From an uncultured Hungatella sp. (lineage in GTDB: Bacteria > Bacillota > Clostridia > Lachnospirales > Lachnospiraceae): a DNA stretch of 37,725 bases. Location of the stretch: contig CAMUJH010000038.1 of NCBI GenBank assembly GCA_947089145.1, forward strand, positions 1 through 37,725. The letters are read 5' to 3'. Position numbers and translations under genes: made by a program. Positions 15,041 through 35,950 of the stretch are shown piece after piece; position 1 is the first letter of the stretch; each line of letters begins with the position of its first letter. Below the pieces are notes generated by a model. It worked only from the letters and a program-made list of their open reading frames with translations. It made no database searches and was not told the origin of the DNA.

Positions 15041-15083
15041 CCTGCGCACGGGCGGCGGTGCACCCCCAGCCGGGCGCACAAAG
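15041..15083 (-). repeat. Right-half copy of the 99-bp coding-compatible repeat
   Basis: The plus-strand segment CCCCAGCCGGGCGCA and the preceding GGCGGCG match the right part of the full copy at 34054-34152. On the minus strand it reads CAPGWGCTAA in the same frame as HAPGWGRAA in the full copy. It lies directly after the stop codon of the PLP enzyme gene (stop at 15088-15090). Confidence 0.65.
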
Positions 15084-15087
15084 GTTT

Positions 15088-16038
15088 TCATGAACCGTTT
15101 TCTGCCTGTTTTCCGCTGAGATAATCGAAATACAGCGGCAGGCCCCCTGTGTGGATAAACAGCACCCTTTCGTCTCCAGTCCCGTATTGTTTAAGCCATT
15201 TTTGCATCCCTGCATAGGCTTTTCCCGTATAAACCGGATCAAGGGCAATGCCGTGGCGTCCCATCATCTCTTCTATTACGTCCTCTATAGAAGAATCATA
15301 AAGCCCATAGCCTCCGCACCGATAATCCGTCTCAAAGCGGATCGCTTCATTCCCCTCCCCGGCATACCTTCTGACAGCTTCCATTCCTCTGTCCTTATCC
15401 CTGGCTACAGAGATTCCGATGATCTCTTCCTCTCCCCCGGCTTCCCTCTTTCCTGCCACAAGTCCGCCCTGGGTCATGCCTGTGCCGCTGGCATGGAAAA
15501 TATGAGTCAGCTTCACGCCGCTGTCTTTCTCCCATCTGCCTATTTCGTGGTATGCCTTCCGGTATGCCTGCCTGGCTGCGAGCTCATTGCCTGTCCCATA
15601 TTGGTTTCCATACAGGTAATATGGGCGATGCCCTTTCTTTTTCAGTTCCTCTAAAACCTGCGCCACCGTTTCCGCCACATGGCTTTTTTTGCATACAGCC
15701 AGCTGTGCGCCTGTACGCTCTGCAATCTGTCTGTTAAAGGTCTTGCTTGATGCGCCTTCTTCTTCAGAAACAAGTATCAGGCAGGGAATATCCCTGCTTT
15801 TACACAATCCAGCCATGGTCCGGTTTAAATTTGACCCAGGGCTTCCGTAGGAAACCATAAAGTCTCCGCCCTTTTGTTCCATGTCCTCCAGAAAAGCCAT
15901 GCCGATCCTGCACTTATTTCCCCCGAAGGAAAATCCCAGCAGGTCATCCCGCTTCATAAAAATGTCCTGGCCGCCTGGGAGCCTGCCTAAATATTGAACA
16001 GGCGTAGGCTCCAAAAGCAGTTCTTTCCTCATTATCAT
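15088..16038 (-). CDS. PLP-dependent D-cysteine desulfhydrase / ACC deaminase family enzyme
   Basis: This 316-residue fold-type II PLP enzyme has the Schiff-base lysine in FSFGGNKCRIG (about residues 36-46), preceded by the family signature FMKRDDLLG. Further family features are YGSPGSNLNRTMAG, the phosphate-binding HASGTGMTQGGL region and a C-terminal HTGG. Family members release H2S and pyruvate from D-cysteine, deaminate 1-aminocyclopropane-1-carboxylate, or act on other D-amino acids; sequence alone does not decide. The start at 16038 follows GAGGGGA; an extension to 16164 would overlap the upstream gene and lacks family similarity. It follows the flavodiiron gene after 67 bases. Confidence 0.85.
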   Translation of the reverse strand: MIMRKELLLEPTPVQYLGRLPGGQDIFMKRDDLLGFSFGGNKCRIGMAFLEDMEQKGGDFMVSYGSPGSNLNRTMAGLCKSRDIPCLILVSEEEGASSKTFNRQIAERTGAQLAVCKKSHVAETVAQVLEELKKKGHRPYYLYGNQYGTGNELAARQAYRKAYHEIGRWEKDSGVKLTHIFHASGTGMTQGGLVAGKREAGGEEEIIGISVARDKDRGMEAVRRYAGEGNEAIRFETDYRCGGYGLYDSSIEDVIEEMMGRHGIALDPVYTGKAYAGMQKWLKQYGTGDERVLFIHTGGLPLYFDYLSGKQAENGS

Positions 16039-16105
16039 GGTTCTTTCCCCTCTCTCGGGATGTGCCCCCTGCCTAAAATCCTGTCTCCGTAAGATTTTGG
16101 GGCTG

Positions 16106-17278
16106 TTATTCACCCTGTGCCAGCTGGTCTGCCAGCTGTCCCATAGCCTCCCTGCTGCCGGCATCCAGCGCAGAGCGGATGGTTACCGCCGGTTCTGCCA
16201 CTTTGATCTGTTTCATACCTTCAAACATGGTCCGCATAGTCTTTGCCGCCAGGGGAGCCCATGATCCGTTCTCCACAAGCCCCACGGTCCTCTTCTGGTA
16301 ATTCTTAGCCCTGAGATGGTGCAGGAAGCTTTCCATAGCCGGAAACAGCCCGCCGTCATAAGTCGCTGACGCCGCCGCCATGCGGTCATAGTAAAATGCC
16401 TTTCTCACTGCATAGGACACGTCCGTTCTGGTCAGATCCACAACCTCTACCTGGGTTTCGCCTCTGTCTTTCAGCATCTGAGCCAGCTCCTCTGCCGCCC
16501 TGGCCGTATTGCCGTGGATAGAAGCGCAGGCGATCATGACTCCGTGCGCTTCTGCCTCATAGCTGCTCCACTTGTTGTATTTTTCAAGGTAGAATCCCAG
16601 ATTCTCTTTCAGCACCGGCCCGTGAAGCGGGCAGATCATCCTGATATCCAGCCCTGCGGCCTTTTTCAGCAGCGCCTGAACCTGAATTCCGTATTTCCCC
16701 ACAATATTCAGATAATATCTGGCTGCCTCCTCACTCCATTGTTCCTCCAGCCCGGAATCGGTTCCAAAGGTGCCGAAGCCGTCAGCGGAAAATAGTATTT
16801 TTTCTGTCTGCTCATAGGTTACCATAACCTCCGGCCAGTGAACCATAGGAGCCATAAAAAACTGCAGCGTGTGGCGTCCCAAAGGCAGGGTGTCGCCTTC
16901 CTTCACCACCAGGCTTCTGCCCTCCATGTCCATATCAAAAAACTGCCTGATCATGGGAAATGTCTTGGCATTTCCCACGATCACCGCCTCGGGGTGAAGC
17001 TTGGCAAACCGGGCAATATTCGCCCCGTGGTCAGGCTCCATATGGGAGACTACCAGATAGTCCGCCTTTCTTCCCCCCAGAACCTTCTCTACCCTGGCAA
17101 GCCACTGATCCGTTCCCCGTGCATCTACCGTGTCCATTACAGCAGTCTTTTCATCCAGGATCACATAGGAATTGTAAGTAACCCCGTCCGGTACAGGATA
17201 CTGGCTTTCAAATAAATCCAGATCCGGATCTGCCACGCCTGCATATTGAACCGCTTCTGTCACTTCATATTTATCCAT
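16106..17278 (-). CDS. fprA: Flavodiiron protein (A-type flavoprotein; O2/NO reductase)
   Basis: This 390-residue cytosolic protein has a metallo-beta-lactamase-like domain (1-245) with the diiron ligands H79-x-E81-x-D83-H84 in SHMEPDHG, then H147, D166 and H219 (CPLHG). All usual ligand positions are filled. A flavodoxin domain (246-390) has the FMN loop SIHGNTARAAEE. In anaerobes such proteins reduce O2 to water or NO to N2O using electrons from rubredoxin. No rubredoxin domain is fused and none is encoded in the window. The start at 17278 (MDKYE) is set by GGAGG; five upstream codons are the ribosome site itself. It lies after the ABC exporter genes across a 119-base gap that contains a half copy of the 99-bp repeat. 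Confidence 0.95.
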   Translation of the reverse strand: MDKYEVTEAVQYAGVADPDLDLFESQYPVPDGVTYNSYVILDEKTAVMDTVDARGTDQWLARVEKVLGGRKADYLVVSHMEPDHGANIARFAKLHPEAVIVGNAKTFPMIRQFFDMDMEGRSLVVKEGDTLPLGRHTLQFFMAPMVHWPEVMVTYEQTEKILFSADGFGTFGTDSGLEEQWSEEAARYYLNIVGKYGIQVQALLKKAAGLDIRMICPLHGPVLKENLGFYLEKYNKWSSYEAEAHGVMIACASIHGNTARAAEELAQMLKDRGETQVEVVDLTRTDVSYAVRKAFYYDRMAAASATYDGGLFPAMESFLHHLRAKNYQKRTVGLVENGSWAPLAAKTMRTMFEGMKQIKVAEPAVTIRSALDAGSREAMGQLADQLAQGE

Positions 17279-17320
17279 GTTTTTTTCCTCCATTTTTTAT
17301 ATCTTCTCTTTTTACTATAA

Positions 17321-17375
17321 AAAATCCCGCCGCTCATTAAACGGCATGCATTCTGGGATGCCGAATGCGCCCGTA
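17321..17375 (-). repeat. Left-half copy of the 99-bp coding-compatible repeat
   Basis: The plus-strand core GGCATGCATTCTGGGATGCC aligns with the same positions of the full copies. On the minus strand it reads [15 protein letters not shown] in the shared frame before reaching a TAG. Similarity stops at about the middle of the full element. It lies 22 bases after the stop of the exporter gene at 17398. Confidence 0.75.
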
Positions 17376-17397
17376 AAGCCCTGTTTTCTATCTCCGG

Positions 17398-19245
17398 TCA
17401 TGTACCCGCAAACTGGCTGTTGTACAGCCGGGCATAAAACCCGCCTTTTTGCAGCAGTGCTTCATGATTCCCCTGCTCCACAATATGCCCGTCCCTCATA
17501 ACCAGGATCATGTCCGCCTCCTTTATGGTGGACAGGCGGTGGGCCACAATAAAGCTGGTTCTCCCTTCCATCATCTTGGCAAATGCCTTCTGTATCCGGA
17601 TCTCGGTCCTGGTATCAATGGACGATGTGGCCTCGTCAAGTATCAGCATAGGCGGAAGGCACAGCATAACCCTGGCAATGCACAGAAGCTGCTTCTGCCC
17701 CTGGGATAAGTTTCCCCCGTCCTCGGAAATTACCGTGTCATACCCTTTTGGCATGCGCTTAATAAAGCTGTGGGCATGGGCTTCCTTTGCCGCCTGAATA
17801 ATCTCCTCCTCAGACGCATCCTGTTTTCCATAGGCTATATTGTCCCGGATAGTTCCTGACTTCAGCCATGTTTCCTGAAGAACCATGCCATAATTGGCCC
17901 GCAGGCTCTTTCTGGTCATATGGCGGATATCAACCCCGTCCACCTTCACGCACCCTGAGTCCACGTCGTAAAACCGCATAAGCAGATTGATCACCGTGCT
18001 TTTTCCGCACCCTGTAGGTCCCACGATGGCGATCCTCTGCCCCGGCTTTACCTGCAGGTTAAAGTCTTCGATCAAAGGCACCTGCGGGTTGTAAGAAAAA
18101 TACACATGTTCCAGCCCAACGTTTCCCCGGGCATCCTCAAGCTCCACCGCGTCGCCATCCTCCGGCTTTAAAGGCTCCTGATCAATAAGGGCAAACACTC
18201 TTGCTGCCGATGCCAGTGCATTCTGCAGCTCTGTCACCACACCGGAGATCTCGTTAAACGGCTTGGTGTACTGGTTGGCATAGCTTAAAAAGCTGGACAG
18301 CTTCCCGACGGAAAGCAGCCCGTTAACCGCTGCATAAGCCCCTGTTACGCCTACGCTGGCATACACCAGCCCGTTTACAAACCGCGTTGCCGGATTGGTA
18401 ATGGAGGAAAAAAACGTGGCCTGCAGGCTGTAGCCCCGGAGCCTTTCATTGATCTCCTCAAAGCGCCTCCCGGCGTCTTCCTCATAGCCAAATGCCTGAA
18501 CCACCTTCTGGCTGCCCAGCATCTCGTCAATAAGCCCGGTCAGCTCCCCCCTGGTTTCCGACTGGCGCTTAAACATCGCATACGTTTTCCTGGCAATATA
18601 GCTTGCCACCAGCAGTGACACCGGGGTCACACAGACCACTACCAGGGCAATCCAGGCATTTACATAAAACATAAAGCCCAAGGTTCCCAAAATGGTCAGC
18701 ACGCCGGTAAAAAGCTGGGTAAAACCCATTAAAAGCCCGTCTGAAAACTGATCGATATCTGCAATAATACGGCTGATAATATCTCCTGACGGGTGGGAAT
18801 CAATATACTTAAGGGGAAGGTTCTCCAAATGGCCAAATGCCTTGGTTCGGATATCCTCCACCACGTGGTAGGTTATCTTATTGTTTATATGGTTCATCAG
18901 CCATTGGGACACTGCCGTAATGGATATCACGGCGGCCATTTTCCACAAAACCGCCTTCAGCCTTTCAAAGTCCACATTTCCCGCTTCTATAATCAGATCC
19001 ACCCCGTCGCCAATAAGAATCGGGGCATAGAGCGTAGTCACAACCGTAACCGCTGCCAGGCACAGAGACAGAAGGACTCCCCATTTGTAATGGCCTATAT
19101 AGTCAAGTATCCTCTTTACTATGAAAGTCTGACGCCCATTAGGCGGCATGCATTCCGGGATGCCAAGTGTGCCCGCCTGGCTTTCATGCGCAGCGGTGCC
19201 TCCCCTTCCGGACGCATGGGGATTTATGGTTGACTTATTCTTCAT
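17398..19245 (-). CDS. ABC exporter half-transporter, catalytic subunit, with an in-frame repeat insertion
   Basis: This 615-residue half-transporter has six membrane helices (about 55-325) and an ABC domain with Walker A GPTGCGKST (409-417), signature LSQGQ (513-517) and Walker B LILDE with catalytic E538. It pairs with the product of 19242-21002 to form a TM287/288- or LmrCD-like heterodimer. The intact glutamate marks this as the hydrolysing partner. The start at 19245 is fixed by GGAGGAGG and by the ATGA overlap with the upstream gene. Residues 9-41 are encoded exactly by the 99-bp repeat and precede RILDYIGHYKWG, where relatives normally begin. The family is usually about 575-600 residues. 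No other ATG with an RBS lies after the repeat. Confidence 0.93.
   Translation of the reverse strand: MKNKSTINPHASGRGGTAAHESQAGTLGIPECMPPNGRQTFIVKRILDYIGHYKWGVLLSLCLAAVTVVTTLYAPILIGDGVDLIIEAGNVDFERLKAVLWKMAAVISITAVSQWLMNHINNKITYHVVEDIRTKAFGHLENLPLKYIDSHPSGDIISRIIADIDQFSDGLLMGFTQLFTGVLTILGTLGFMFYVNAWIALVVVCVTPVSLLVASYIARKTYAMFKRQSETRGELTGLIDEMLGSQKVVQAFGYEEDAGRRFEEINERLRGYSLQATFFSSITNPATRFVNGLVYASVGVTGAYAAVNGLLSVGKLSSFLSYANQYTKPFNEISGVVTELQNALASAARVFALIDQEPLKPEDGDAVELEDARGNVGLEHVYFSYNPQVPLIEDFNLQVKPGQRIAIVGPTGCGKSTVINLLMRFYDVDSGCVKVDGVDIRHMTRKSLRANYGMVLQETWLKSGTIRDNIAYGKQDASEEEIIQAAKEAHAHSFIKRMPKGYDTVISEDGGNLSQGQKQLLCIARVMLCLPPMLILDEATSSIDTRTEIRIQKAFAKMMEGRTSFIVAHRLSTIKEADMILVMRDGHIVEQGNHEALLQKGGFYARLYNSQFAGT
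19123..19221 (-). repeat. Full copy of the 99-bp repeat, inside a coding sequence
   Basis: It aligns without gaps to 34054-34152 over 99 bases with about 19 differences by hand count. The length is a multiple of three, and it is translated in frame as residues 9-41 of the ABC exporter subunit ([32 protein letters not shown]). A GGCAT/ATGCC inverted repeat is kept in all left-half copies. Confidence 0.85.
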
Positions 19246-21002
19246 TGTGCCACCTCCTCCTTTGACAGCTGGGACAGACAGATTTCCCGATAAACCTGAC
19301 AATTTTCCAACAGCTCCTGATGTTTTCCAAGTCCAACCAGCTTTCCGTCGTCCAGCACCAGAATCTGATCTGCGTTCTTAATGGTAGTGGCCCGCTGGGA
19401 TACCATAAACACCGTCATATCTTTTGTGTCCTCACGGATGGCTTTCCGCAGAGCCGCATCTGTGGCAAAATCCAGGGCTGAGGCGCTGTCGTCCAGTATC
19501 AGGATCTCCGGCTGCCGCACCAGGGCCCTTGCAATGGTAAGCCGCTGTTTCTGGCCGCCGGAAAGGTTTTTCCCTCCCTGCTCAATCATCAGGTCCAGTC
19601 CCTGTTCCTTGCTCATTACCACTTCAGCGGCCTGGGCCGTATCTAAAGCCCTATGGATCTCCTGATCCGTGGCATCCTTTTTTCCCCATTTCATATTGTC
19701 CCGAAGGCTGCCTTTAAAAAGGACCGCTTTCTGAGGCACTATCCCGATTTTGCTCCTAAGGCCAGAAAGGGAATAATCCCTTACATCCACCCCGTCCACC
19801 AAAACCGCCCCCTTGGCGGCATCATAAAATCTAGGGATCAGGTTTACCAGCGAAGTCTTTCCGGAACCGGTTCCGCCAATAATGCCGATGGTCTGTCCCT
19901 TCATGGCTGAGAATGAAATCCGGCTTAAGGAAGGTTCTTTTGCCCCGGCATAGTAAAAATCCAGGTTCCTAAACTCCACTTTTGGAACTGCTTCACTTCC
20001 TGTCGCAGACGGCATCGGTCCGCTGCCATTATAAGCATCCCCGCTTTTTTCCACTATGGTGCTTTTCAGGGCAAAAATCCCGCTGATGCGGTTTGCGCAG
20101 GCCAGTGCCTTGGAAATGCTGATAATCAGGTTGGCCAGCTTCACCAGCTCCACCAGGATCTGAGACATGTAGTTAACCAGGGCCACCACCTCTCCCTGGG
20201 TGATAACGCCCTCTTCCACCTGCCATGCCCCGGTCCAGATGAGAACGATAATCGCCCCATTGATGAGCACATAGGTAACCGGGTTCATCAGGGCGGATAT
20301 CTTGCCCACAAACACCTGGAGCCGCACAAGGGTATCATTTTCCTGACCGAACTTGGCAGTTTCATCCTCCTGCCGATTAAAAGCCCTGACCACCCTTGCC
20401 CCCAAAAGGTTTTCTCTGGTGATAAGGAGCACCTGATCCAGCTGCTTCTGAACCTTCCTATATAAAGGCATGGTGATCAGCATAACTCCAAACACCACGA
20501 TGGAAAGCAGGGGAATGGCCACCGCAAAAATCAAAGCCGCCTTCACATTGATGGTAAATGCCATAATCATGGCACCGAACACAATAAACGGCGATCGGAG
20601 AAACAGCCTCAGGGTAAGGTTGATCCCGGCCTGCACCTGGTTTACGTCGCTGGTCATGCGGGTTACCAAAGTGGATGTCCCCGCCGTGTCAATCTCATTG
20701 TAAGACAAGGTGTTAATGTGCCGGAACAGATCGCCTCTCAGCCTTGTTCCAATGCCCACGGCTGCCTTTGCCGAAAAATACTGGGCTGTCAGAGAACAGG
20801 CAAGTCCCACGATCCCAAGAAGCACCAGGATTCCGCCTCTTCCCAGAATATATCCCATATCCCGGCTCTTAATACCCGTATCAATAATCTGCGCCATGAC
20901 AAGGGGCACAAAAAGCTCAAAGCTGGCCTCCAGAAGCTTAAAAAGAGGCCCTAAAATACTTTCAAGTTTATAATCCTTAAAGTATTTCAACAGATTTCTC
21001 AT
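19242..21002 (-). CDS. ABC exporter half-transporter with a degenerate ATP site
   Basis: This 586-residue half-transporter has a six-helix membrane domain (about 15-310) and an ABC domain with Walker A GGTGSGKT (376-383) and canonical signature LSGGQ (480-484). In its Walker B, LILDDSASALD, aspartate D505 replaces the catalytic glutamate. This is the pattern of the non-hydrolysing subunit in heterodimeric exporters (TM287, BmrC, LmrC), which export drugs, peptides or lipids. It overlaps the TrkA-type gene by 4 bases at its start, with GGAGG just before, and the partner gene by 4 bases at its end. The substrate is unknown. Confidence 0.94.
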   Translation of the reverse strand: MRNLLKYFKDYKLESILGPLFKLLEASFELFVPLVMAQIIDTGIKSRDMGYILGRGGILVLLGIVGLACSLTAQYFSAKAAVGIGTRLRGDLFRHINTLSYNEIDTAGTSTLVTRMTSDVNQVQAGINLTLRLFLRSPFIVFGAMIMAFTINVKAALIFAVAIPLLSIVVFGVMLITMPLYRKVQKQLDQVLLITRENLLGARVVRAFNRQEDETAKFGQENDTLVRLQVFVGKISALMNPVTYVLINGAIIVLIWTGAWQVEEGVITQGEVVALVNYMSQILVELVKLANLIISISKALACANRISGIFALKSTIVEKSGDAYNGSGPMPSATGSEAVPKVEFRNLDFYYAGAKEPSLSRISFSAMKGQTIGIIGGTGSGKTSLVNLIPRFYDAAKGAVLVDGVDVRDYSLSGLRSKIGIVPQKAVLFKGSLRDNMKWGKKDATDQEIHRALDTAQAAEVVMSKEQGLDLMIEQGGKNLSGGQKQRLTIARALVRQPEILILDDSASALDFATDAALRKAIREDTKDMTVFMVSQRATTIKNADQILVLDDGKLVGLGKHQELLENCQVYREICLSQLSKEEVAQ

Positions 21003-30510: not shown

Positions 30511-30676
30511 TTAAGGTTTCCGCAGGCCCCAAGGGCACCATCTCCTGTCAGGGTTCAGAATTGCCAAACGTTCCGAAGAGCCCGAAAAACAGGTCTCTTC
30601 TCCACGGCATTAATTCACCCTGACAGGAGATGGTGCCCTTGGGGCAAAAGCAGAATTCGCTTATCTAAATGACATT
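30499..30676. repeat. 178-bp foldback (MITE-like) element at the end of the LysR gene
   Basis: Outer arms of 12 bp (30499-30510 and 30665-30676) and inner arms of 28 bp (30526-30553 and 30618-30645) are perfect inverted repeats, with a central loop of about 64 bases. The inner arms read GCCCCAAGGGCACCATCTCC and its complement at the ends. The direct repeats ACGGAACAGGC (30487-30497) and ACAGAACAGGC (30677-30687) lie immediately outside. No ORF is encoded. It could also act as a very strong terminator or RNA-processing site, but there is no T-run. Confidence 0.75.
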
Positions 30677-33579: not shown

Positions 33580-34032
33580 TCAAATAAATTCATTATGGCT
33601 GTCCAGCATCAGTGTAAAAGGTCCGTCGTTGACCAGTGACACTTCCATATAAGCGCCGAATATGCCCTGCTCTACCCGTTTTGCGTACAATCTGCACCTT
33701 TCTACCGCATATTGATAAAGCTCCTTGGCCATTTGGGGAGAACCGGCTTTTATAAAACTTGGGCGGTTGCCTTTCCTGCAGTCTGCATACAAGGTAAACT
33801 GGCTTACCACCAGTATCTCCCCTTCCACATCTGCCAGAGACAGATTGGTTTTTCCGTTTTCGTCCTGGAAAATCCTCAGCTTGCAGATTTTGTCAATCAT
33901 CCTGTCAGCAATCTGCCTGGTATCTTCTTCCTCCACCCCCAGAAGTATCAGGTATCCCGGTCCGATGGAGCCTGCAATCTGTCCTTCTGCAAAAACCTTC
34001 GCCTCTTTTACTCTCTGCAATACCACTCTCAT
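33580..34032 (-). CDS. dtd: D-aminoacyl-tRNA deacylase
   Basis: This 150-residue protein is the usual length for DTD. It starts [13 protein letters not shown] and carries the catalytic SQFTLYAD and the cross-subunit NDGPFTLML segment that recognises D-aminoacyl groups through a Gly-cisPro turn. It frees tRNA from mis-attached D-amino acids and glycine. The start at 34032 follows GAGGAGGG. A longer open frame to 34182 reads through the 99-bp repeat and part of the upstream gene and has no ribosome site. It lies 121 bases after the GDPD gene, and the gap is filled mainly by the repeat. Confidence 0.96.
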
Positions 34033-34053
34033 TTTATCCCTCCTCGTTACTTT

Positions 34054-34152
34054 AAAAGTCCGCCGCCGATTAGGCGGCATGCATTCAGGTATGCCAAATG
34101 CACCCGCCAGACTTTCATGTGTGGCGGCGCGTCCCCAGCCGGGCGCATGGGG
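34054..34152 (-). repeat. Full copy of the 99-bp coding-compatible repeat, intergenic
   Basis: It fills the gap between the GDPD and dtd genes and begins directly after the GDPD stop codon. It is gap-free against 19123-19221 with about 80% identity. On the minus strand its frame reads [17 protein letters not shown] and [16 protein letters not shown]. Inverted repeats include CCGCC-GATTA-GGCGG and GGCAT/ATGCC. Confidence 0.85.
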
Positions 34153-34153
34153 T

Positions 34154-35950
34154 TTACTTAAGCAGCGCCCGCACATACCCAAGAAGGTTCTCTGTACCTT
34201 CCTCCCGGTATAAAATTTCCCTTGCGAAAACCGGCATGTCCGTAATCACATTATCCACAGCCAGGACCCGCATCCGTTCCAGTTCCGCCCTATCATTGAC
34301 TGTCCAGGCATGAACGCTTTTCCCTTCCTCATGGGCCAGGGTTACCAGGCTTTCGGTTATAAACCCTGAGCGGATGCTGATCACGTCAATCTCTTCATTT
34401 CTATAGTAATCCCCGTAAGCCGCAGGAAGAATATAGCCTGTGCGGATATTGGGATTTATACTCTTTATTTGTCTTAAGCATTCCATGTTCGTGCAGGTAA
34501 TGATGCACTGATCCTCCATCTCGTGCTCTTCTACCAGGCGGCAGACTTTTTGAGGCAGCGAACTTTCCGTTCCCGCATACTTTATCTCAATGTTCAGATT
34601 CAGCCGGCCTTTGGCATACTCCATGGCTTCTGTCAGCGTAGGAATCGGTTCCCCTGCGTACTCCTCTGAAAACCAGCTTCCCACCTCCACTTCCCTTAAT
34701 TCCTCTAAAGTCATATCTGATATTTCCATGGCGATGCCTGACACCCGGCGCAAATTTTCATCGTGACAGAGGACTGCTGCGCCGTCCTTTGTCTCCTGTA
34801 CATCGATCTCTGCCCAATCAGCCATCTCTTCCACTGCCGCCATCAAAGCTGCCATGGTATTTTCCGGCGCGGACTTTGAGCTGCCTCTGTGGGCCGTGAT
34901 CTCTGTCTGCACCACAAAGGAACTGGATAAGAAGCTGCCGTTGCAGGCGCTGTCAATAAGGCCGGCTCCTGTTATAATGCCTGCCCCAGCCAGAAAAAGC
35001 AGGCCGTTTTTCCGGCTCAGGAATGCTGTCCCAGTGTCAAAAAAGTGCTGCCTGCCTATTCTATTTTTTCCGTACCGATAATACTGCACCGTCAGATCCG
35101 CAAAATAGAACAGGCTTGCAGCCATGCTTGCCAGGGCCATAATGCTCCACTCCGCCCAGTCTGCCGCCCGCAGAAGAAATGCGAATTCCAGATCCTGCCT
35201 GACAAAAAGCACTGCCGCCAAAGCCATAATAGCCACCATCGCCACATAACATGCCCCGGCGCCGGCCGCAATAAGAAGCTGGGGAAGAACGATTCGGACT
35301 ATTATCCCCGCCTCCCTTCCTCTTAATAGTTCTACGCTGTCTCTTTTGCTGTCATAATAAAATTTCTGTTCTGTCATGCACCCATGGAATACAAAATAAG
35401 AAGGAATGACAGCGGCGATGCAGATGCACACAAAAAGAAATGCCCCGCCCCACAGAAATGGATTGGCGGACATTTCCTCAATAACAAAGTTTACTGGTTT
35501 CACATGGGTCAGGGTCCTGTACAAATAGAAAATGTTCATAAGAAAAAAATCCGCAGCAGCAACTGCAAAAAGACGGAAGTTCTTTCTCGCCAGCTGTTCT
35601 TTTGTGCTTCGGATTCCCGCAGAAAGAATCTGGAGAGCCGGCATCTTTAGAGAATACACGGCTCCTGAATAGGCCGCCACCAGTCCTCCCGCCTCCACCG
35701 CAAGAAGCAAAAGCCCCGCAAGAACAAGCACGAAAAACACGGGAAGCGTCCAGGGGCTTAACAGAACCTTCCCCGCATTTTCCAGAGTTAAATAGCTGTA
35801 CCCTGCCCTGCCCAGAGAAAACCTTATGCCGGCATTCAGAAGCTGCAGATAGATGCAGGAAGCTGCCAGCCGGTATCCTATATGAAACGTCAGCAGATTT
35901 TTGCTGTTAAACCGGATGATTTCGCTTGTGTCGTGTAATAGAAGCCTCAT
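34154..35950 (-). CDS. Membrane glycerophosphoryl diester phosphodiesterase
   Basis: This 598-residue protein has a membrane domain with about seven or eight helices (1-345), followed by a GDPD catalytic domain (350-598) facing out. Active-site features are [12 protein letters not shown] (general acid His and Arg), [10 protein letters not shown] (metal-binding Glu-Asp), CHDENL (second His) and NLNIEIK. It hydrolyses glycerophosphodiesters, or possibly the glycerol-phosphate chain of lipoteichoic acid. The ATG directly follows the stop of the alarmone synthetase gene, so they are coupled. The 3' end abuts the 99-bp repeat, and the last codon-stop pair (AAG TAA) is at the element edge, so insertion may have changed the very C-terminus. 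Confidence 0.92.

Follow-up and report, generated by a model that had tools for sequence, protein, structure and literature searches.

Rickettsia palindromic elements (RPEs), as described in excerpts of two articles, are 105–146 bp long and occur both between genes and as in-frame copies within them, where they form an extra segment in conserved proteins; one RPE-carrying product (Gmk) was shown to be translated and active, and the elements are tabled with 12-bp terminal inverted repeats (PMC2229807, PMC10969869). ERIC, YPAL (RU-2), RU-3, and the 107-bp Correia element have open frames that are fused in frame to other open reading frames (ORFs), and the same excerpted source tables ERIC, Correia, and RU-3 with terminal inverted repeats and gives proteobacteria as the hosts (PMC2229807). 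The BOX element of Streptococcus pneumoniae is modular, reaches more than 500 bp, and gives a stop codon at the extreme 3′ end in 36 of 58 overlapping coding sequences; gene-end overlaps and ORFs consisting mainly of BOX are what the excerpted report describes, not internal in-frame inserts (PMC3049150). REP sequences are put at 20–40 bp in an extract of a further article (PMC3733652).

The repeat analyzed here comes from Lachnospiraceae, and we found no description of such a repeat in the literature (open-licence PMC articles). Compared by description, it resembles RPEs in its size range and in having both intergenic and in-frame intragenic copies. It differs from them in lacking terminal inverted repeats, in its interleaved internal helices, in its excess at stop codons, and in its host. 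A sequence-only reading of the locus had likened it to RPEs, and the likeness stands for its behavior but not for its ends: when the outer 25 nt of the two consensus ends are compared, no complementary run is longer than 4, and 4 is also the value that shuffled ends give most often. Because terminal inverted repeats are lacking, we do not file the repeat as an RPE or as a MITE, from which it differs in the same way. Its in-frame fusion to ORFs, again compared by description, is shared with ERIC, YPAL, RU-3, and Correia; unlike ERIC, RU-3, and Correia, it has no terminal inverted repeats and its host is not proteobacterial. With BOX it shares, by the same kind of comparison, a Firmicute host and stop-codon overlap, and it departs from BOX in its internal in-frame inserts. 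Like REP sequences, which are palindromic, it is high-copy and interspersed, but at about 105 nt it is much longer than 20–40 bp.

An in-frame repeat copy within an ABC exporter gene

The window, that is, the whole stretch of DNA analyzed (37,725 nt), encodes a half exporter next to its partner subunit. The features of the interrupted gene are as follows.

17398..19245, minus strand: ABC exporter subunit gene (half exporter, 615 aa; Pfam ABC_membrane and ABC_tran), carrying the in-frame insertion
19242..21002, minus strand: partner ABC exporter subunit gene, with a TGA that overlaps the interrupted gene's ATG
~19117..19224, minus strand: repeat-copy insertion together with the TAAA common to both junctions; 108 nt, residues 8–43, NPHASG...TFIV
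19224..19226, minus strand: 5′ TAA at the insertion site, out of frame (xTA-Axx)
19116..19118, minus strand: 3′ TAA of the insertion site, placed from the sequence and the empty site in G010

The exporter ORF is open right through the repeat copy (translation of 17398–19245, minus strand), which is matched by the repeat profile with E 2.3e-27. In G010, the nearest genome compared, the empty site reads ACCATAAAG, and the protein runs MKNKSTI-KRILDYIG where the window has MKNKSTI-(36 residues)-KRILDYIG. Both flanks match at 90.8% nucleotide identity: 15884–19118 over 3240 aligned positions with 30 gap positions, and 19223–20790 over 1568 nt with no gaps. In G010 itself these two stretches overlap by 4 nt (TAAA); the insertion is therefore 108 nt, or 36 codons, with limits that are ambiguous by those 4 nt. 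The sequence-only reading had placed a repeat of 99 nt (33 codons) at residues 9–41. A real repeat copy does lie there in frame, but it spans residues 8–43. It had also held that the length is a multiple of three, that no stop is introduced, and that the element seems to have entered the gene without breaking its frame; the length of 108 nt, the open ORF, and the empty G010 site with matching flanks bear this out. Its observation is thus partly confirmed, and its interpretation is supported.

A clean gap in homologues had been predicted, and the repeat is absent from the exporter N terminus in all 20 same-genus orthologues that were read. A motif placed 21 of the 28 loci tried, namely these 20 plus the gene in the window itself; it failed to place the remaining seven (L063–L069; 40%–66% identity), which were left out of the count. 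Named relatives of the protein are mostly from Lachnospiraceae. The length of the N-terminal tail differs greatly among orthologues, which lends some color to the idea that the extra residues belong to an ancient, variable tail of these exporters and merely resemble the repeat; orthologues in G014, G004, G011, G018, and G009 do have long tails rich in Lys and Ala. These tails are, however, unlike the repeat, and G010 aligns on either side of the 108 nt and lacks these alone. The variable-tail reading is in effect refuted, and we give it a negligible probability. The long Lys/Ala-rich tails of orthologues L053, L054, L056, L058, and L061 look like an independent expansion of the same tail.

Translation would begin upstream of the insert. 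The start codon is the ATG at 19245, which overlaps the TGA of the upstream gene and has the strongest Shine-Dalgarno pairing (−17.0 kcal/mol) among the 1481 ATGs in the window, with no other as strong; the strong ribosome site and ATGA coupling noted earlier are therefore confirmed. The claim that no usable start precedes RILDYIG needs qualification: the stretch from the insert to RILDYIG has no in-frame ATG, GTG, or TTG, yet codon 33, within the insert, is an in-frame ATG. The repeat might accordingly donate a new start, with most of the inserted peptide never made. This ATG falls within the conserved TGCATGCC of the repeat, and a start there would leave a tail of 11 residues before K44, close to the seven of G010. 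Against this, its ribosome site is average (−3.5 kcal/mol, a value that 44% of window ATGs equal or exceed) beside the −17.0 kcal/mol of the upstream ATG, in close orthologues that lack the insert the equivalent upstream position is occupied by ATG or GTG, and the idea is inapplicable to two other genes, described below, in which the inserts are internal. We regard translation mostly from codon 33 as improbable, and the insert peptide is presumably made.

The insert precedes the conserved membrane domain, since phmmer matches to solved exporters start at residue 39 (3qf4_B), 42 (5mkk_A), 43 (2hyd_A), or later (residue 62 for the best-scoring chain, 9x46_B) and the Pfam match for the membrane domain begins at residue 58. 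The known topology of such exporters would make the N-terminal tail cytosolic. The exporter probably still works with the insert in place.

Copies in the window and spread of the family

Further traces of the repeat lie elsewhere in the window, with the following features.

34046..34158 (profile match 34048–34155), minus strand: second repeat copy, between the GDPD and D-aminoacyl-tRNA deacylase genes
34154..34156, minus strand: TAA stop codon of the GDPD gene, within the 5′ end of the second copy; the window reads ...LLK-TAA followed by ACCCCATG
34154..35950, minus strand: glycerophosphodiester phosphodiesterase family gene (Pfam GDPD, GPDPase_memb), upstream of the second copy
33580..34032, minus strand: D-aminoacyl-tRNA deacylase gene (Pfam Tyr_Deacylase), downstream of the second copy
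17314..17412, minus strand: decayed, incomplete copy that overlaps both the exporter gene's end and the spacer after it (profile E 5.2e-12, model positions 20–111)
15047..15087, minus strand: weak fragment, 5′ third of the repeat (profile E 0.003, model positions 3–43)

The two main copies had been taken as exactly identical; they are only 81% identical over 115 nt (19110–19224 versus 34041–34155). The second was described as intergenic. It does lie between two genes, but the TAA that stops the GDPD gene falls within its 5′ end. In G010 the GDPD gene likewise ends in ...LLK-TAA, without the repeat; the downstream spacer differs, and only the 5′ junction of this copy is clean. In the place of the decayed copy G010 has a shorter, more decayed stretch, and that copy may be older than the split from G010. 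Two other repetitive features of the window are separate from these copies: a palindromic feature at 30526–30645, distinct from the repeat, with 40-nt inverted arms 40 nt apart that are 88% complementary, and, near the contig end (37572–37716), three tandem copies of a G+C-rich 47-nt unit.

With the window copy as query, 43 places were found in its own genome (itself included); a profile built from 32 copies gave 113 own-genome matches at E ≤ 0.01. Eight of 26 genus genomes have the repeat at E ≤ 0.001, with 107 copies in the own genome, 121 in G010, 44 in G016, 38 in G006, nine each in G003 and G015, three in G024, and two in G005; the other 18 gave no match. Across the family, 11 of 299 genomes (a draw of about one per genus, own genome included) have it at E ≤ 1e-4. 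This survey scored 12 candidates per genome, so that its counts are floors and its absences are not firm.

The window comes from a draft genome (127 contigs, 87.4% complete, 3.45% contaminated), and repeats can mislead assemblers; an artefact of assembly or binning was weighed for this reason. Most own-genome copies are 75%–89% identical to the window copy, too different to collapse, the exporter flanks on both sides match the same G010 locus, and two other insertions lie at different loci, one of them in another genome. We consider an artefact very unlikely.

No phage or plasmid record (50,697 and 72,556, respectively) matched copy L002 at E ≤ 0.01, and no exact 22-mer of a repeat copy was found in IMG/VR. 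A known Rfam RNA was rejected, as none of 4227 covariance models gave a gathering match in the window; searches of five and six loci at relaxed thresholds gave four sub-gathering matches, all outside the repeat. Head-to-tail arrays with a spacing of about 109 nt occur at G010:C117:6293–6620 (L321), own C27:6327–6546 (L032), and G016:C20:31523–31851. A copy lies just upstream of the same putative gene, which we take to be dxs, in L009 (own C16:56122–56223) and in L312 (G010:C181), perhaps a shared older insertion.

Other genes with in-frame copies of the repeat

In-frame copies in other genes, which the earlier reading had proposed to seek, were found. Across 84 own-genome copies, a scan of all six frames sought open frames no shorter than 130 codons. 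Two genes emerged in addition to the exporter, with the repeat in the same frame in each. The first encodes a DUF1835-DUF3658 protein (L017:1082–2104), with a 36-residue insert between its Pfam domains (64–163 and 231–329); homologues in G015 and G003 are uninterrupted at the insert point, and the G003 copy carries stops. The second is a bacterial sugar transferase gene (L003:859–1638), in which the C-terminal tail appears to come from the repeat; a relative in G010 with 66% identity matches it as far as residue 211.

A translated-repeat search covered six genomes, and further cases were taken from among the matches listed. A lipoprotein of G015 has 35 inserted residues, and its relatives in the own genome (C89) and in G003 are uninterrupted there. 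The own C89 homologue (L330/L332), which is without the repeat, has a stop and apparent frameshifts. Three candidates were added: a G003 gene with a repeat-derived C-terminal tail, a G010 C-terminal tail that reads about 19 repeat residues and then stops, and a Cas-like protein of G006 that carries the repeat (TIGR02221, below its cut-off). There are thus three insertions with homologues that lack them, one C-terminal tail with a shorter relative, and three candidates; the four cases beyond the exporter, DUF1835-DUF3658, and lipoprotein genes are weaker. The placement ahead of a membrane domain noted by the sequence-only reading holds for the exporter, but insertions in other genes also fall outside cytosolic N-terminal tails.

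All seven cases read the repeat in one frame, which for the four outside the own genome is partly so by construction, the query having been in that frame. Among 17 loci read from queries in two other frames, none was a convincing case. Long frames in other readings, in these 17 fetched loci and the 84 own copies, look like 5′ leaders or spurious antisense frames; their rejection is a judgement from translations, among the matches listed and for frames of at least about 130 codons. The consensus itself would account for the single frame. Of its three sense phases only xTA-Axx leaves the element open, one being the TAA stop and another meeting a stop inside the element. The consensus is open in one antisense frame as well; among the copies scanned, no antisense coding insertion was seen.

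The inserts in the exporter, DUF1835-DUF3658, and lipoprotein genes are 108, 108, and 105 nt long. Among the 73 copies whose TAA-to-TAA unit could be measured, its length is 108 nt in 21, 109 nt in 25, and a multiple of three in only 28, so that the translated copies are a frame-keeping subset. We suggest that selection removes out-of-frame insertions. The in-frame insertion is real, is wider than first stated, and belongs to a family with a likely landing rule. The exporter is, to the base, an example from a Clostridia lineage of a dispersed repeat turned into protein sequence; two more genes add to it, and segments of about 36 residues of this type in proteins of this group may be repeat-derived, a point of caution for annotation.

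Landing sites, orientation, and structure

Many copies carry GTAAACC at the 5′ end, with AGTAA at the 3′ end. Among the 73 full-length copies of the own genome, a 5′ TAA is present in 38 and absent from 35 by a test that uses whichever TAA comes first within 13 nt (and that misses the GDPD copy of the window). An ORF of at least 150 codons ends in frame at this TAA in 13 of the 38, compared with two in each of the other phases (binomial p 3.4e-4); as a control, 90 of the 3935 other TAAs that these loci contain end such an ORF in frame. A wider set of 93 copies gave 22 in frame at the stop and two and six in the other phases, but some of its loci were chosen for long frames and it is biased, so that the own-genome test is the one relied on. 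ORF counts come from a simple ORF caller. A stop codon is the commonest recognizable gene-linked position of the repeat.

MIRU elements are 77–101 bp long, co-directional with operon genes, and located at stop/start overlaps, where they target DTGA in translational-coupling sites. The Lachnospiraceae repeat is similarly co-directional with its neighbors: among 72 own-genome copies with enough flank to be scored, 35 lie in sense and eight in antisense between two co-directional ORFs (p 4e-5). It is unlike MIRU in its target, with an excess at TAA and an exporter insertion about 17 nt past the ATGA overlap.

Direct repeats were seen at two junctions, TAAA in the exporter (relative to G010) and AAC in the lipoprotein. 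The lipoprotein empty site is GTGAAC in both relatives, which goes against a strict TAA rule, and that of the DUF1835-DUF3658 gene is too diverged to read. When 48 of 132 copies were pooled to test for matching flanks, the excess was small: the best 4-mer on the expected diagonal was observed 14 times versus 10.5 expected, and the largest single excess lay off that diagonal. The 3–4 nt shared at junctions could be microhomology rather than target duplication.

We think it probable that the repeat is a small (about 105 nt), directional, non-autonomous mobile element that inserts at TAA(A)-like targets and is translated when it lands as xTA-Axx and keeps the frame. Insertion relative to G010, the open frame, membership of a repeat family, the stop-codon excess, and the orientation bias are observed; mobility itself we infer. 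A family spreading patchily through Lachnospiraceae would, on inserting at a TAA(A)-like target, leave TAA-like sequence at both ends. Where the TAA is the stop codon of a gene, insertion would be harmless because the stop is kept. Where it lies out of frame inside a gene (xTA-Axx), the sense strand would be open through the whole element, and a unit length that is a multiple of three would let the ribosome read it as an insert of 35–36 residues. In the exporter, the element would have entered a tolerant N-terminal tail just ahead of the membrane domain. The TAA rule predicts both the landing places and the frame used, and many pairs of empty and filled sites among related species are in prospect.

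Structure was assessed by counting over a structure that we named, interleaved helices included, in an alignment of 46 copies from eight genera (of 94 listed, each of the 21 belonging to other genera and 25 of the 73 belonging to the own genus). Three helices were counted, ATGCGCCC/GGGCGCAT, GAAAGT/ACTTTC, and GCCGCC/GGCGGC, the first two of which interleave as a pseudoknot. Helix cells were paired in 91.7% of cases and in 38.7%–47.6% when the structure was slid, a control that favors the structure, which was drawn from the same sequences. Both partners had changed in seven pairs, a number that 4 of 500 shuffles attained (shuffle mean 2.9), and double changes occupied 20 cells (shuffle mean 4.0, with 0 of 500 as high), counts that related copies inflate. 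The interleaved helices covary across genera. The RNAalifold covariation term was weak (−0.21 for 39 own-genome copies and −0.25 for the wider alignment), and the window copy alone folded no better than shuffles (z 0.15, nested folds only).

Covariation of the helices across eight genera, the sense orientation, and the placement at stop codons would also suit an element kept for a function, as a structured RNA that acts on mRNA processing or translation from gene ends or from between co-directional genes. Copies inside genes would then be by-products, and this reading is compatible with mobility. The repeat has no match in 18 of the 26 genus genomes, however, the window copy alone folds no better than shuffles, and the structure may serve mobility instead. 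We consider retention for such a function rather unlikely. Returning to the mobile element, we advance with some reserve, as a possibility, that this is a directional, stop-docking Lachnospiraceae family in which the pseudoknot is a mobile or regulatory form (single-stranded DNA or RNA) that is integrated at TAA. If so, one target rule would lie behind both the stop-codon seats and the single translated frame, and the family would be a recurrent source of ready-made protein extension.

A last observation concerns an antisense copy, L306 (G010:C12), in which the next gene seems to take its ribosome site from the repeat end CGCATGGAGGGTAAT.
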